Made by a program: the position numbers and the translations under genes. Under the pieces are notes generated by a model. That model was not told where the DNA came from. It saw nothing but the letters and a program-made list of their open reading frames with translations, and searched no databases. From the NCBI GenBank assembly GCA_018268195.1, contig JAFDWZ010000020.1:1-64000 (forward strand): a stretch of DNA of 64,000 nt, in the 5' to 3' direction. This document shows positions 16,122-22,443 of the stretch, piece after piece (the stretch's first letter is position 1; each line of letters opens with the position of its first letter). Source of the DNA: Bacteroidota bacterium (lineage in GTDB: Bacteria; Bacteroidota; Bacteroidia; AKYH767-A; OLB10).

Positions 16122-17063
16122 TTACTTCACCGGTTGCTGCATGTTATCGAGCACCGACATAACCTCTTTTACAGCTTTGGCGCTGCCATCCAGAAGTTCT
16201 TTTTCTTCTTTATTAAGATTAAGTTCAATAATCTGTTCTATACCGTTCTTACCTAATTTCACAGGAACACCAAGATAAATATCTTTCATTCCATATTCGC
16301 CTTGCAACCAAGCGCAGCAAGGGAAAATGCGTTTCTGATCGCGCACAATGGCTTCTACCATCTGAGCTGCAGCAGCTCCGGGAGCATACCATGCAGAAGT
16401 ACCCATGAGATTTACCAATTCACCGCCACCTACTTTGGTACGTTGAATAATAGCATCTAATTTATCTTTTGCAATAAGTTCAGTTACCGGTATTCCAGAA
16501 ACAGTAGTGTAACGTGGCAACGGCACCATGGTATCGCCATGTCCGCCCATCAGCACTGCCTGTATATCTTTGGGAGAGCAATTGAGCGCTTCAGCTAAGA
16601 ACGCACGGTAGCGTGCAGTGTCAAGAATGCCTGCCATCCCGAAAACTTTTTTGGAATCGAGTCCTGATGTCAGGTAAGCGCAGTAGGTCATTACATCAAG
16701 CGGATTAGAAACCACTATGATGATGGTGTTAGGTGAATATTTTACAATATTCTCAGTTACGGAACGAACAATGCCTGCATTGGTAGCAATCAAATCATCG
16801 CGGCTCATGCCCGGCTTACGTGGCAATCCTGAAGTAATTACAACTACTTCTGAATCTTTTGTTGCTGCATAATCATTGGTTGAACCTTTGATGCGGGTGT
16901 CATAAAGATTGATAGGGGCTGTTTGCCACATATCAAGCGATTTGCCTTCGGCAACACCTTCTTTAATGTCGAGTAATATTACTTCATTAGCTACTTCATT
17001 GTGAGCAATAACATTGGCGCATGTTGCTCCTACATTTCCAGCGCCTACAACAGTTACTTTCAT
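16122..17063 (-). CDS. mdh: Malate dehydrogenase (NAD)
   Basis: A 313-residue LDH-like malate dehydrogenase that interconverts malate and oxaloacetate in the TCA cycle. The NAD-binding motif GAGNVG is at residues 7-12 and Asp32 (LLDIKEG) favours NAD over NADP. Substrate-binding Arg82 and Arg88 (LPRKPGMSRDD) and Arg151, and the catalytic pair Asp148/His175 (GGHGDT), are all present. An Arg at position 82 marks malate rather than lactate specificity. It has its own promoter (17098-17105) and a strong terminator, so it is probably monocistronic. Confidence 0.96.
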   Translation of the reverse strand: MKVTVVGAGNVGATCANVIAHNEVANEVILLDIKEGVAEGKSLDMWQTAPINLYDTRIKGSTNDYAATKDSEVVVITSGLPRKPGMSRDDLIATNAGIVRSVTENIVKYSPNTIIIVVSNPLDVMTYCAYLTSGLDSKKVFGMAGILDTARYRAFLAEALNCSPKDIQAVLMGGHGDTMVPLPRYTTVSGIPVTELIAKDKLDAIIQRTKVGGGELVNLMGTSAWYAPGAAAAQMVEAIVRDQKRIFPCCAWLQGEYGMKDIYLGVPVKLGKNGIEQIIELNLNKEEKELLDGSAKAVKEVMSVLDNMQQPVK

Positions 17064-17105: not shown

Positions 17106-17168
17106 TTTAAATCATCCTAATGAACGCTGAATTTTGTAAAAATCATGTCAACAATTTATTGGCGAATA

Positions 17169-17199
17169 TTTTGATTTTATTGGTGAAAGCGTACATTTG
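17169..17199 (+). promoter_or_regulatory. Promoter directly before the SprB-repeat adhesin
   Basis: TTTTG (17169-17173), an 18-nt spacer, then a perfect -7 box TACATTTG (17192-17199), ending 4 nt before an in-frame GTG at 17204. This is one of the best two-part matches in the window and decides the start codon chosen for the adhesin. Confidence 0.55.
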
Positions 17200-17203
17200 T
17201 GCT

Positions 17204-20200
17204 GTGAACCCCATTGCCAGATTTATACTTTACAGTGTATGCTGTATTTTTTTTAGTACCTCACTATCAGGTCAGGCACCTACCAATCAGGATTGCCCCA
17301 ATGCTATACCCATCTGTAATTTAGTGTACAGCACTACATTATCTTACAGCGGAACGGGGAATATTCCTAATGAAATTAACAGTGGTTCTTCCTGTCTGCT
17401 AAGTGGCGAAAGAAATGATGTATGGTACACCTTTACGACTCCTTTTTTCGGGAACCTTAACTTCACCATTACACCTAACAATCCTTTGGATGATTATGAC
17501 TGGGCTGTTTACAATCTAACTACTGCAACCTGTGCCGACATATATACAAATCCTGGCATAGAGGTGAGTTGCAACTATGCACCTAATCTGGGTTGTGGTG
17601 GTGTGACCGGTCCAAACAACAATACTTCCGGGCCGTGTGGCGGGCAAAACAACCCGAGCATTCCAGTGACACCGGGGCAAACTTATGTGATTAATGTGAG
17701 TAATTATTCTGCAACACAATCAGGATATACCATAGATTTTAGTGCTTCTACGGGAAGTATTTTTGATGTCTATCCTCCTATGTTATTGTCAACCACACCT
17801 ATCACCTGCGGCTCTACTTCCATTACACTCACCTTCAACGAAAATGTTACCTGCAATTCAGTGCAGCCAACAGATTTTGTTCTTACAGGACCGGGAGGAC
17901 CTTATACAATTACTTCTGTTACTTCAGCAGGGTGCGCAAGCGGAGCCGATTACAGTAAGGTTTATACTGTAACCTTTTCGCCTGCAATTTCAGTTTCAGG
18001 CGCCTTTAATTTTGCTATTGTTAGTCCGGTACAGGACTTGTGCGGAAACAATATTGCTGTTCCTACCAATAAAGCCATATTAATAAATGGAGCAACCGTT
18101 TCTGCACAACATACCAACAATAATTGTTTTGGTGATTCGGACGGTACTATCACGCTTACACCCGGAGGTGCAGGCCCTTTCACTTATCAATGGTCGCCCA
18201 ATGTGAGCACAGGAAATACGGCAAATAACCTACCTGCAGGAACTTATACCATTACTGTAACACCTTCTAACGGAGCATGCAATGCTTTAGCAACAATAAA
18301 TATTACAGAACCAACTGCATTGGCTATTCAAAGCCAGCATGTTGACTCAGCATTATGCGGCTCAGCAAGCGGCTCAATTGCCGTAGTAATGACAGGTGGT
18401 ACAACACCATATCAATATCAGTGGACACCAAGTGGAGGTAATTCGGCTACTGCAAGTAATCTTGTACCCGGCAATTATACGCTTGATGTTACCGATGCAA
18501 ATGGTTGTGATTTCAGTCAGACATTTACCGTTTACAATAAAAATAATATCGCTGTTACTGTAAACACCATAAACAATGTGAAATGCAAGAACGGCAGTGA
18601 TGGCGGAATCATACTTAATGCCAATGGACTTTCGGCAGGAGCAACTTATTTATGGTCTAATGGCTCAACAACAAAAGACTTATCTAATGTTCCGGCAGGA
18701 GTATATACTGTTACGGTTACAGATGGTCTTTGTCAGACAGTGATTCCTAACTTGCTTATAACAGAACCTGCTAATGCCATTTCAGTTTCCACAACTGCTA
18801 ATGCAACTACATGCGGATTAAACAACGGCTCTATTGCAGTGACTGCATCAGGTGGCACAGGTTCACTCACTTATCAGTGGTCACCATCAGGTTCAGGCAC
18901 TTCATCGGCTTCGTTAGCATCAGGCATGTATATAATTACCGTAACTGATGTCAACGGATGCACTGCAGTGCGCAATGTGAATGTTGGTGCATCAACAAGC
19001 CCAAGTGCTTCTGTCAATTATATCCGCCAATCGGTATTATGTCATAACGATGCCAATGGCAGTGCAATCATTTCAGTGAGCAGCGGAACTGCACCTTATA
19101 GTTATCAATGGTCAGGAGGAATGGGAACAGGAGCATCAAACTCTACTTTGTCACCGGGAAATTATATTGTTACAGTTATCGATAATGCCGGATGTACCAC
19201 ATCAACCATTGTAACTATCAACAATGCACCGCAATTGGTGCTCACAGCAGGAGCTGTGCAACATGTTAAATGTTTTGGGCAGAACAACGGCAGTGCAACC
19301 TATATTGGTTCAGGAGGCACAGGTGCACTCTCCTATCAGTGGTCGCCATCAGGCGGAACAGGGACAACTGCTTCTAATTTATATGCAGGTACTTATACGG
19401 TAATTCTTACTGATGCCAACTCTTGTACCGTAAGCAGCAGTGTGGTGATTCATCAGCCTGCGGCTGCACTGAGCAATCAGTTTAATACAACAGCTACAAC
19501 TTGCGGGCTGAATAACGGAACTTCAACAGCAACCGTAAATGGAGGAACGGCTCCTTACAATTATTTATGGTCGAATGGTGTTACCAGCAATGCTCCTACA
19601 GCACTTGCAGCAGGAACTTATACCCTTACCATAACTGACGCCAATCAATGTGTGCTCACACAAAGTACAACGATTGCACCTTCTACTTCGCCATCAGTTA
19701 CGAATGTAAACATACAGAATTTAACCTGTTCAGGTTCTGCAAACGGCAGTATTTCTTTGCAGGTATCAGGAGGTGTATCACCTTACACTTACCAATGGAA
19801 TAACAATGTTAGCACAACCGGCAGCGCAACTTCCTTAAATGCCGGCAACTATACCGTTACCATCACCGATCAGGCAGGTTGTACCACATCGGCAACATAC
19901 AGTGTAACTACACCCGCCAACATCACCATTCAACTTTTAAGTCAGCAGAATGTGCTTTGCTTTGGTAATGCAACCGGTGCTTTGCAGATAGCTGCAAGCG
20001 GAGGTACGGGTACTTTAAATTATTTATGGTCGAATGGAAACGCAGGCACTTCTATAAGTGCACTCACTGCCGGAAGTTATTCGGTTACCATTACCGATCA
20101 GAACAATTGTACTGCACAACAAACCTACAATGTTAGTCAGCCGGCAGCAGCGTTATCATCAGTAATTACGTCAGGAAACACTTCATGTGGCTTAAGTAAC

Positions 20201-21841
20201 GGAACAGCACTTGCCACACCGGCAGGAGGAACCACTCCATATAAATACCTGTGGTCAACAGGTTCCAATGCCGCACAAATCAACAATCTTACATCAGGAA
20301 CATATACCGTTACCGTATCTGATTTTCACAACTGCTCACTTACACAGTCTGCCATCGTTCAGCCATCGACAGCAGTGGCCATACAAAACACTTCGCAGAG
20401 CAATGTAACCTGCAATGGAGGAAATGACGGTACAGCATCTGTAATAGCAGCAGGAGGAATCACACCTTACACGTATCAATGGACAGGTGGACAAAACACT
20501 GCATCGGTTCAGAATCTTAATGCAGGAAACTATGTAGTAACCATTACCGATCAGGCAGGATGTACGGAAACAACATCCTTTACCATCACACAACCCAACC
20601 CGATTGTAGTGACATTGCCGGTACCTCAAACTATTTGTTCCGCACAAAACACTACCATCGCACCACAAATTTCGGGAGGAACACTCCCCTATCAGTATTT
20701 GTGGAATGACGGATCAACACAAGATTCCTTACTTGTAAATCCAACCGTAAACAGCAATTACCTGCTAACTGTAACCGATGATCATGGATGTACAGCATCT
20801 GCTACAACTTCGCTTAATATTTACCCTCAACTCTACATTGCACCTTTTAATTCATACTCGATATGCGAAAACACAACGGTAAGTTTAACGGCAAACGTAA
20901 GTGGTGGCAACAATATTTACAATTATAACTGGAACAACGGAGCATCATCATCAAATAGCTTTACAAATACTTACAACACAACATCAGTAGTAAATTTAAC
21001 AGTTACCGATGGCTGTAACTATTCGGCAACGGCAACTATTCCTGTAAACGTTGTACCAAATCCTATAATCTTATTCACTGCTGAAAACACTGCTGGATGT
21101 ATTCCGCTAACTGTAAACTTTACTGATTCATCACAGGCTGTTGCAGGATCGGTTTACAATTGGAATACCGGTGCTGGAAATCCTCCGCAACAAAGCGGAA
21201 ACTTTCAGATTACCTACACACAGTCAGGAATTTATTATCCAGAACTTACCATTACCACTCCTGCTCCTGAAAACTGTACGACAACAAAGAAAATGAACGA
21301 TGGCATTCAGGCTCTTGACTTACCGGTGGCTGATTTTAAGTTTGACCCCGAAGAGCCTACCATTCTTAATCCTTATGTATCTTTCGTAAATCAATCACTC
21401 TTTGCAACAACTTACAACTGGAGTTTTGGTGACGGAGGAAATTCACAGGAAGAAAACCCCTTGCATCGCTACAACCTGATTGGCACTTACGAAGTGTTGC
21501 TCATTGCTTCCAACTCTTACTGCGAAGATTCAACCTTGCGTACTTTGGAAATAACAGAGCAATACTCATTCTATGTTCCTAATTCATTTTCACCTAATGC
21601 TGATGGTAAAAATGATTTGTTTGAAGCCTATGGCACCAACATCAGCTCGGTAAGTATTTCCGTATTCAACCGCTGGGGGATGAAAGTGTTTGAATCATCT
21701 GCACTACCATTTAGCTGGAACGGAAAAAAAATGAACTCAGGTGATGATTTACCACAGGGAATTTATGTTTATACGGTTAGGCTTACTGATAAAACAGGAC
21801 AAAACCATTCCTACAACGGCACCATTGCTCTCATACGTTAA
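17204..21841 (+). CDS. SprB-repeat surface adhesin with gliding-motility C-terminus
   Basis: About 1545 residues from the GTG at 17204; an in-frame ATG at 17120 would add 28 residues. The GTG start gives a compact signal peptide (NPIAR, hydrophobic core, SLSGQ) and sits right behind a promoter, whereas the ATG has none. In order, the mature protein has: a Cys-rich beta domain (DVWYTFTTP); a bacterial Ig-like domain (LTFNENVTC); eleven SprB repeats of ~75 residues, each with a GG-PY-YxW core, an aGxYtVtvtD end and a conserved Cys; a twelfth, divergent repeat; two PKD-like domains; and a CHU_C type B sorting domain (FYVPNSFSPNADGKNDLF). SprB is the mobile adhesin of gliding flavobacteria moved on the surface by the GldKLMNO machinery. 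Role here: adhesion or gliding, secreted by the type IX system. Confidence 0.88.
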   Translation: MNPIARFILYSVCCIFFSTSLSGQAPTNQDCPNAIPICNLVYSTTLSYSGTGNIPNEINSGSSCLLSGERNDVWYTFTTPFFGNLNFTITPNNPLDDYDWAVYNLTTATCADIYTNPGIEVSCNYAPNLGCGGVTGPNNNTSGPCGGQNNPSIPVTPGQTYVINVSNYSATQSGYTIDFSASTGSIFDVYPPMLLSTTPITCGSTSITLTFNENVTCNSVQPTDFVLTGPGGPYTITSVTSAGCASGADYSKVYTVTFSPAISVSGAFNFAIVSPVQDLCGNNIAVPTNKAILINGATVSAQHTNNNCFGDSDGTITLTPGGAGPFTYQWSPNVSTGNTANNLPAGTYTITVTPSNGACNALATINITEPTALAIQSQHVDSALCGSASGSIAVVMTGGTTPYQYQWTPSGGNSATASNLVPGNYTLDVTDANGCDFSQTFTVYNKNNIAVTVNTINNVKCKNGSDGGIILNANGLSAGATYLWSNGSTTKDLSNVPAGVYTVTVTDGLCQTVIPNLLITEPANAISVSTTANATTCGLNNGSIAVTASGGTGSLTYQWSPSGSGTSSASLASGMYIITVTDVNGCTAVRNVNVGASTSPSASVNYIRQSVLCHNDANGSAIISVSSGTAPYSYQWSGGMGTGASNSTLSPGNYIVTVIDNAGCTTSTIVTINNAPQLVLTAGAVQHVKCFGQNNGSATYIGSGGTGALSYQWSPSGGTGTTASNLYAGTYTVILTDANSCTVSSSVVIHQPAAALSNQFNTTATTCGLNNGTSTATVNGGTAPYNYLWSNGVTSNAPTALAAGTYTLTITDANQCVLTQSTTIAPSTSPSVTNVNIQNLTCSGSANGSISLQVSGGVSPYTYQWNNNVSTTGSATSLNAGNYTVTITDQAGCTTSATYSVTTPANITIQLLSQQNVLCFGNATGALQIAASGGTGTLNYLWSNGNAGTSISALTAGSYSVTITDQNNCTAQQTYNVSQPAAALSSVITSGNTSCGLSNGTALATPAGGTTPYKYLWSTGSNAAQINNLTSGTYTVTVSDFHNCSLTQSAIVQPSTAVAIQNTSQSNVTCNGGNDGTASVIAAGGITPYTYQWTGGQNTASVQNLNAGNYVVTITDQAGCTETTSFTITQPNPIVVTLPVPQTICSAQNTTIAPQISGGTLPYQYLWNDGSTQDSLLVNPTVNSNYLLTVTDDHGCTASATTSLNIYPQLYIAPFNSYSICENTTVSLTANVSGGNNIYNYNWNNGASSSNSFTNTYNTTSVVNLTVTDGCNYSATATIPVNVVPNPIILFTAENTAGCIPLTVNFTDSSQAVAGSVYNWNTGAGNPPQQSGNFQITYTQSGIYYPELTITTPAPENCTTTKKMNDGIQALDLPVADFKFDPEEPTILNPYVSFVNQSLFATTYNWSFGDGGNSQEENPLHRYNLIGTYEVLLIASNSYCEDSTLRTLEITEQYSFYVPNSFSPNADGKNDLFEAYGTNISSVSISVFNRWGMKVFESSALPFSWNGKKMNSGDDLPQGIYVYTVRLTDKTGQNHSYNGTIALIR
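18545..20599 (+). repeat. Three-copy super-repeat inside the adhesin gene
   Basis: Units start at 18545, 19232 and 19919 (687, 687 and 681 bases). Each holds three SprB repeats of distinct types, in the same order: type A (Cys before KNGSDG, FGQNNG or FGNATG), type B (CGLNNG or CGLSNG), type C (Cys followed by HNDANG, SGSANG or NGGNDG, usually ending in DQAGCTT). The conserved Cys codons of type A fall at 18584, 19271 and 19958, exactly 687 bases apart. Confidence 0.75.
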
Positions 21842-21894: not shown

Positions 21895-22443
21895 ATGGAC
21901 TTTAGCATTCAACCTGAATTGGAAAACGACAAAACCAAGCTATTGCCTTTGAAGGAAAACGACTTTGAAGAACTATATCAGGTCGCTTCCGACCCTGAAA
22001 TATGGGAACAACATCCTAACAAAGACCGTTACAAAAGAGAAGTTTTTCTTAATTTTTTTGAAGGTGCCATAAAAAGCAAAGGTGCGTTTAAAATAATAGA
22101 CAAAACCACCGGAAAAATTATTGGCAGCACGCGATATTATGATTACAACGAAGCAGAAAACAGCATACACATAGGCTATACGTTTTATGCCAAATCCTAT
22201 TGGGGAAGAAGTTTCAATCATACTGTCAAAACGCTGATGCTTGACTACATATTCAACTATGTATCGAAGGTAATCTTTCATATTGGAGCAAAAAATATCC
22301 GCTCACAAATTGCTATCAGCCGATTAGGTGTAGAAAAAACCGGAGAGGAGGAAATTGCTTATCATGGTGAGCCATCGAAACTGAATTTTGTATATGAGAT
22401 AACAAAAAATGCATGGCATACACATCAGAGTGACGCCATCTGA
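21895..22443 (+). CDS. GNAT-family N-acetyltransferase (RimJ/RimL type)
   Basis: A 182-residue protein with the Acetyltransf_3 pattern. The N-terminal LLPLKENDFEELYQVASDPEIW is the typical opening, then GSTRYYDYNEAENSIHIGYTF and the segment SYWGRSFNHTVKTLMLDYIF, which forms the acetyl-CoA pyrophosphate-binding region although the usual Q/RxxGxG/A loop is weak. The C-terminal IRSQIAISRLGVEKTG matches the N-S-N-E-like region of the family. It transfers an acetyl group to a protein N-terminus or small molecule that cannot be predicted. It follows the adhesin by 53 bases and no terminator is seen between them. Confidence 0.82.
   Translation: MDFSIQPELENDKTKLLPLKENDFEELYQVASDPEIWEQHPNKDRYKREVFLNFFEGAIKSKGAFKIIDKTTGKIIGSTRYYDYNEAENSIHIGYTFYAKSYWGRSFNHTVKTLMLDYIFNYVSKVIFHIGAKNIRSQIAISRLGVEKTGEEEIAYHGEPSKLNFVYEITKNAWHTHQSDAI

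Follow-up and report, generated by a model that had tools for sequence, protein, structure and literature searches.

The repeats of a SprB-repeat protein encoded in the window (the whole 64,000-nucleotide stretch of Bacteroidota DNA analysed here) recur by type at every third position, and this rhythm is carried mainly by the ends of the repeats. Two kinds can be told apart: L repeats, with C-x5-G before a fixed glycine and a [QE]P linker, and s repeats, which have C-x4-G, a loop shortened by one residue, and lack the [QE]P linker. Since the core is common to L and s, and the differences lie at the ends facing the neighbours, s repeats most likely set different joints. The reading that we hold to be rather probable is a surface stalk with an LLs rhythm and s-set joints, in which an old triplet duplication occurred and the order of types has been kept since.

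Gene and repeat array

Bacteroidota have few surface proteins larger than those with SprB repeats, and SprB powers gliding. The open reading frame at 17120-21841 contains 13 stretches matching Pfam SprB (PF13573; 292.7 bits, over the cut-off), and its CHU_C (E=1.1e-18 to 1.7e-19) and TIGR04131 matches (44.7 bits for a cut-off of 35, 1.1e-11) indicate a type B sorting domain of the type IX secretion system (T9SS). Judged by these matches, the product is a SprB-repeat surface protein, not a demonstrated gliding adhesin. We cut the array by hand into 11 canonical SprB repeats (R1 from 18098, R11 to 20605) and two degenerate ones; A, B and C below are the types named by the initial annotation.

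16122 to 17063, reverse strand: malate dehydrogenase (mdh, TIGR01763), divergent neighbour and synteny anchor
17120 to 21841, forward strand: SprB-repeat protein with type B T9SS tail, 1573 aa (Pfam SprB, CHU_C and PKD_4; TIGR04131)
17270 to 18097, forward strand: N-terminal non-repeat head, with weak GBD-like and Big_5-like Ig matches, both below cut-off
18098 to 18322, forward strand: R1, type L, 75 aa
18323 to 18547, forward strand: R2, type s (by its Cys loop), 75 aa
18548 to 18778, forward strand: R3, type L (A), 77 aa
18779 to 19003, forward strand: R4, type s (B), 75 aa, CGLNNG
19004 to 19237, forward strand: R5, type L (C), 78 aa, DNAGCT
19238 to 19468, forward strand: R6, type L (A), 77 aa
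19469 to 19693, forward strand: R7, type s (B), 75 aa, CGLNNG
19694 to 19924, forward strand: R8, type L (C), 77 aa, DQAGCT
19925 to 20152, forward strand: R9, type L (A), 76 aa
20153 to 20377, forward strand: R10, type s (B), 75 aa, CGLSNG
20378 to 20605, forward strand: R11, type L (C), 76 aa, DQAGCT
20606 to 21058, forward strand: R12 and R13, hand-cut degenerate repeats that close the array and fit neither type
21401 to 21526, forward strand: PKD domain, best stretch (PF18911, 6.4e-19)
21575 to 21829, forward strand: CHU_C type B T9SS sorting domain (PF13585, 1.7e-19; TIGR04131, 1.1e-11)

The type string of the window is LsLsLLsLLsL followed by two unclassified repeats, and all 13 repeats contain exactly two cysteines, 49-51 residues apart. 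Many arrays of the same taxonomic order also end in two degenerate repeats that fit neither type, which suggests a conserved capping pair before the tail.

The host genome (3.0 Mb, 71 contigs) contains the T9SS translocon, with SprA (TIGR04189) at 2498.8 bits; its GldJ match is barely above the cut-off. PorP/SprF genes are found at seven places in this genome and at none on the contig of the window gene (C12), leaving it no adjacent carrier gene. In this it differs from SprB of Flavobacterium johnsoniae, with which it shares SprB repeats and the CHU_C/TIGR04131 tail: sprF adjoins sprB in the excerpted text of PMC9143113, and the excerpt of PMC9870892 gives SprB 6497 aa, against 1573 aa here. 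Another locus of the same genome (L064; G000:C23:86000-101000) has 43 repeats, nearly all L and none s, and adjoins the best PorP/SprF match (C23:86941-87768); it is a better candidate than the window gene for the gliding adhesin of this organism.

Of 42 genomes of the order, 14 have the same head domain. A 704-aa protein (L163; G000:C25:24000-33000) carries it at 51% identity, and no SprB array of at least six units was found there, so that one head goes with different stalks. Downstream of the array gene, at 21895-22443, lies a GNAT protein whose best match is the acetyltransferase part of NCBIfam ileS_w_GNAT (3.1e-37), with a score far below the whole-protein cut-off of that model. The named near relatives of the host are metagenome assemblies, such as Bacteroidetes bacterium OLB10 (unclassified Bacteroidota in NCBI).

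Types recur at every third repeat

The initial annotation had seen in repeats 3-5, 6-8 and 9-11 the same succession of types three times over. The array is indeed uneven in this way: protein identity among R1-R11 is 32.9, 33.4, 41.5, 32.2, 35.7 and 35.8% at lags 1 to 6, so that repeat n is clearly more like n+3 than n+1, and the opposite outcome, neighbours equally alike, did not occur. Shuffling the order of the repeats gave p=0.00005 for lag 3 over R1-R11 and p=0.00045 over R3-R11. Codon-aligned DNA follows the same pattern more weakly (44.1, 44.5 and 48.4% at lags 1 to 3; p=0.00135). The landmarks given for the blocks were also recovered. The first Cys codons of R3, R6 and R9 lie at 18584, 19271 and 19958, a spacing of exactly 687 bases twice; the repeats themselves begin at 18548, 19238 and 19925, within a few bases of the proposed 18545, 19232 and 19919; R4, R7 and R10 have the B motif as CGLNNG, CGLNNG and CGLSNG, and R5, R8 and R11 the C motif as DNAGCT, DQAGCT and DQAGCT.

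A blind test of periods 2-8 on all 13 units gave p=0.054 in the window array and 0.07-0.08 in its three congeners, as might be expected if the order of these diverged repeats were due to chance in a short array. Yet the lag-3 test, stated beforehand, gave p of about 5e-5, and the same type string is found in four species and, with a triplet missing, in three orthologs (L055 and L056 among these being nearly identical), which makes chance hardly credible. The period signal is real for the lag named in advance, though modest.

Averaged over the four congeners, identity is 34.1% at lag 1, 34.6% at lag 4 and 32.9% at lag 7, with lag 3 as the peak: a comb of period three. The lag-3 excess persists when the s and L labels are fixed in place (p=0.0005, four congeners averaged). 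The low value at lag 1 could also arise if selection against misfolding kept adjacent domains unlike, so that n+3 seems alike by comparison, and this fits the excerpted text of PMC8201768, where repetition is disfavoured in multidomain proteins. We find this very improbable, as identity falls as low at lags 4 and 7 as at lag 1 and peaks at lag 3, neighbours are the most alike repeats in two other arrays (L085 and L086), and lags 2-8 are not level in 23 of 96 arrays.

Two kinds of repeat, distinct at their ends

The three types proposed were not equally sharp. Among the four congeners, B repeats average 43.6% identity with one another, against 32.5% with A and 34.6% with C, and C repeats 44.3% with one another; A is not a coherent type, because A repeats are no closer to each other (37.0%) than to C (38.8%). 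Three equal types were rejected on this ground: B stands out sharply, C weakly and A not at all. The distinctness of B lies at its ends. In end columns (1-18 and 70-76) identity is 58.7% within B, 16.6% between A and B and 22.7% between B and C (four congeners), whereas in core columns B is not distinct (BB 37.4%, AB 39.1%, BC 39.1%); type C is distinct in the core (47.9%). Type B bears its marks at both ends, a shortened Cys loop and a lost [QE]P linker, and in the window the B repeats belong to the s kind as defined above. The period-3 signal is strongest in the end columns by which type B is defined and smaller in the core, where lag 3 reaches 43.7% against 39.5 and 39.9 (p=0.007).

Divergence of the blocks and repeat number in relatives

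The period had been taken as a possible sign of recent change in adhesin length. Synonymous sites argue otherwise: at lag 3, fourfold sites are saturated, 31.3% being the same for 31.3% expected from composition, and all four members of the genus have 13 repeats in identical type order. Repeats in the same position agree with those of the congeners at 44.8% (L051), 46.0% (L052) and 36.6% (L053) of fourfold sites, above the chance level seen at lag 3, and hence the repeats most likely diverged before the genus. A recent tandem duplication was rejected by the synonymous sites and the congeners.

An array shaped by recent slippage or recombination of a 687-base unit, as in a periscope-like protein, would account for the Cys spacing being exact twice. 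It would not account for blocks that are 47-50% identical in DNA, with fourfold sites at chance, nor for a repeat number equal in 4 of 4 congeners, nor for Tandem Repeats Finder reporting no tandem repeat for the window array, and we give this explanation very little credence. Periscope proteins do resemble the window protein in that a head is borne on a stalk of tandem domains, one that varies in length, as excerpted in PMC8201768. Their DNA repeats are highly similar and vary in number between strains. Such similarity is absent from the window array, whose blocks are 47-50% identical with fourfold sites near chance; its 13 repeats are common to 4 of 4 species of the genus.

Growth by duplication of a 229-residue block, the other part of the original proposal, is plausible once recency is dropped. 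Of 15 loci tested, 7 keep the divergent adjacency to mdh, among them L054, L055 and L056 from two sister genera (L055 and L056 being nearly identical copies from one genus). The mdh-syntenic orthologs (G006, G012 and G016) have ten repeats, L?LsLLsL plus two, which is one triplet fewer. In a tree of blocks, R6-8 groups with R9-11 (80/87) and R3-5 with the first block of the orthologs (75/79), neither branch being starred; a tree that instead unites R3-5 and R6-8 is not firmly rejected (p-AU 0.069), and identity barely places the extra triplet, the best gap position being ahead by about one point. From these comparisons, it is likely that a triplet was duplicated once in the stem of the genus. 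Other steps occur as well: L057, which shares the head domain, has only eight repeats (LLsLsL plus two), so steps other than three take place and the three-block is a local habit. A repeat number fixed modulo 3 in all relatives was rejected, as head-domain relatives have 8, 10 or 13 repeats, and also 28 or 35.

s repeats are spaced along the arrays of the order

A 76-column profile applied to 101 loci gave 90 arrays with at least six repeats and 2084 repeats in total (1260 L, 306 s and 518 unclassified). Near copies (L051, L052, L053, L056, L116, L118 and L119) were excluded from the pooled type counts and kept in the per-array lag identities and in the period test of 96 arrays described below. 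The contrast between s and L is greatest at columns 9-17 and 71-75; at column 73, for instance, proline is found in 90% of L and 9% of s repeats. We compared same-type with different-type pairs in the 26 arrays with at least four repeats of each kind, leaving out the columns that define s and L. At the ends, same-type pairs were 12.5 points more identical (positive in 24/26), and in the core 2.4 points (positive in 21/26).

The s repeats are spaced. In 42 arrays, s repeats were adjacent in 14 cases for 59.8 expected, and two apart in 121 for 41.8 expected. Within the order of the window, adjacent pairs number 8 against 53.9 expected, and a later held-out sample of the order (20 loci, 21 arrays) gave 3 against 18.0; this sample includes likely orthologs of the first set (L197 of L066, for example) and so is not fully independent. 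Outside the order there was no difference from chance (6 adjacent pairs for 7.9 expected). A universal rule that s is never adjacent to s was rejected, given the 14 adjacent pairs in 42 arrays and the lack of depletion outside the order. In the order, 8 of 11 adjacent s pairs have an L-like [QE]P linker between them, and since most keep it, such pairs may be hybrids. Joint length, from the second Cys of one repeat to the first Cys of the next, also depends on type: it is 25 residues in 230/253 L-s joints and 26 in 232/260 s-L joints, while L-L joints scatter over 25-27.

Arrays of the order have an s at every 2, 3 or 4 repeats. The B type described in the window is one case of a putative joint-type repeat that SprB arrays of the order carry in a rhythm. 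As other arrays have the same s type at periods of 2, 3 and 4, three is not a fixed structural number; the structural period once suggested survives in altered form, the rhythm lying mainly in the end columns. We found no earlier description of SprB-repeat types or higher-order periods in open-access titles and the starts of abstracts, a coverage outside which the original 2008 SprB paper falls.

Periods of other SprB arrays

Among 96 arrays with at least ten units, 23 were periodic at p<=0.01, the window not being one of them: period 4 in 11, 7 in 8, 3 in 2, and 2 and 6 in one each. These counts ignore kinship among arrays, and the any-lag statistic, which sets each lag against the lags on either side, may prefer 4 to 2 where arrays alternate. 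No single period holds in general, since periods 2, 3, 4, 6 and 7 all occur. The strongest periods belong to L149 (G246:C1:2582001-2602000) and L157 (G262:C19:176001-196000), with open frames of 7027 and 7001 aa, each with PorP/SprF genes immediately after it. In these giants identity at lag 7 is 51-53%, all other lags from 1 to 13 giving 26-30%, and a seven-repeat super-unit may be the architecture of gliding SprB itself. At lag 7, 66.0% of fourfold sites in L149 are the same for 41.9% expected, and its blocks therefore look much younger than those of the window. Four Saprospiraceae loci (L114, L116, L118 and L119) also have a seven-repeat period, at p<=0.01 in three and p=0.032 in L119. Repeats in L148 and L153 are 76-84% identical in DNA, with 60-73% of fourfold sites the same; unlike those of the window, they are young.

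Plain block copies such as those of L149 and L157 raise the question of whether the type order in the window could be a mere relic of block duplication, structurally meaningless. A relic would agree with the lag-3 excess in the core as well as the ends, and with syntenic orthologs that differ by exactly three repeats. We nevertheless doubt it. In L065, L081 and L082 (period 2), alternation is strong in the end columns out to lag 8 and absent or faint in the core, although the core is the better-conserved part; this argues that end types are maintained for their own sake. In addition, s repeats avoid adjacency across many arrays of the order, the later sample included. In L076 and L077, alternation is present in both end columns and core.

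Predicted fold and a proposed model of the stalk

A model of the L+s pair R6-R7, built from 25 aligned pairs, had a pLDDT of 93.5 and a pTM of 0.74, with two beta domains and a linker that was confident too; a six-repeat model from a four-row alignment had a pLDDT of 40. Each repeat is predicted by the pair model to be an Ig-like domain, and the two conserved cysteines suggest one disulfide per repeat. The nearest solved structures to this pair are cryo-EM fragments of GhpA, the Aureispira grappling hook (9flw, 9flp, 9fls, 9flx, 9g8b and others; 5898 residues in the PDB sequence file). GhpA fragments take ranks 1 and 2 in Foldseek and the top six rows of VIA-align (Z 8.5-9.3 over 138-142 residues, 18-22% identity), with Z values barely above those of unrelated Ig and fibronectin pairs, and the sequence match to GhpA is weak (E=0.0088).

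In the surface stalk that we favour, 11 disulfide-bearing Ig-like domains and two closing ones would carry the N-terminal head, and the protein would be exported through the T9SS by its type B tail. Each s repeat would alter the joints on both of its sides, and with s regularly spaced the stalk could take on a regular geometry, keeping the head off the cell. The array was probably once shorter and gained at least one block of three by duplication (R6-8 with R9-11) among the ancestors of the genus; the type order has been kept since, as seen in four species.

A bolder extension, which we offer tentatively and with more doubt than belief, is a two-letter joint code: s would be placed at regular intervals (Ls, LLs, LLLs), rarely adjacent, and the order of letters would encode the bend, twist or stiffness of the fibre, selected independently of the copying history of the core. 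If so, stiffness or curvature could be read from sequence and tested by swapping the ends of individual repeats. The window array also suggests that an even-looking domain array may hide an old higher-order unit, and that repeat counts are worth comparing in blocks. A likeness exists in the E-G5 arrays of SasG/Aap, where, in the excerpt of PMC4458895, two domain kinds likewise follow a fixed rhythm and their interfaces govern the shape of the stalk. The E and G5 domains are unlike in length (50 and 78 residues) and in stability, whereas the two kinds in the window are both about 76 aa and differ mainly at their ends.
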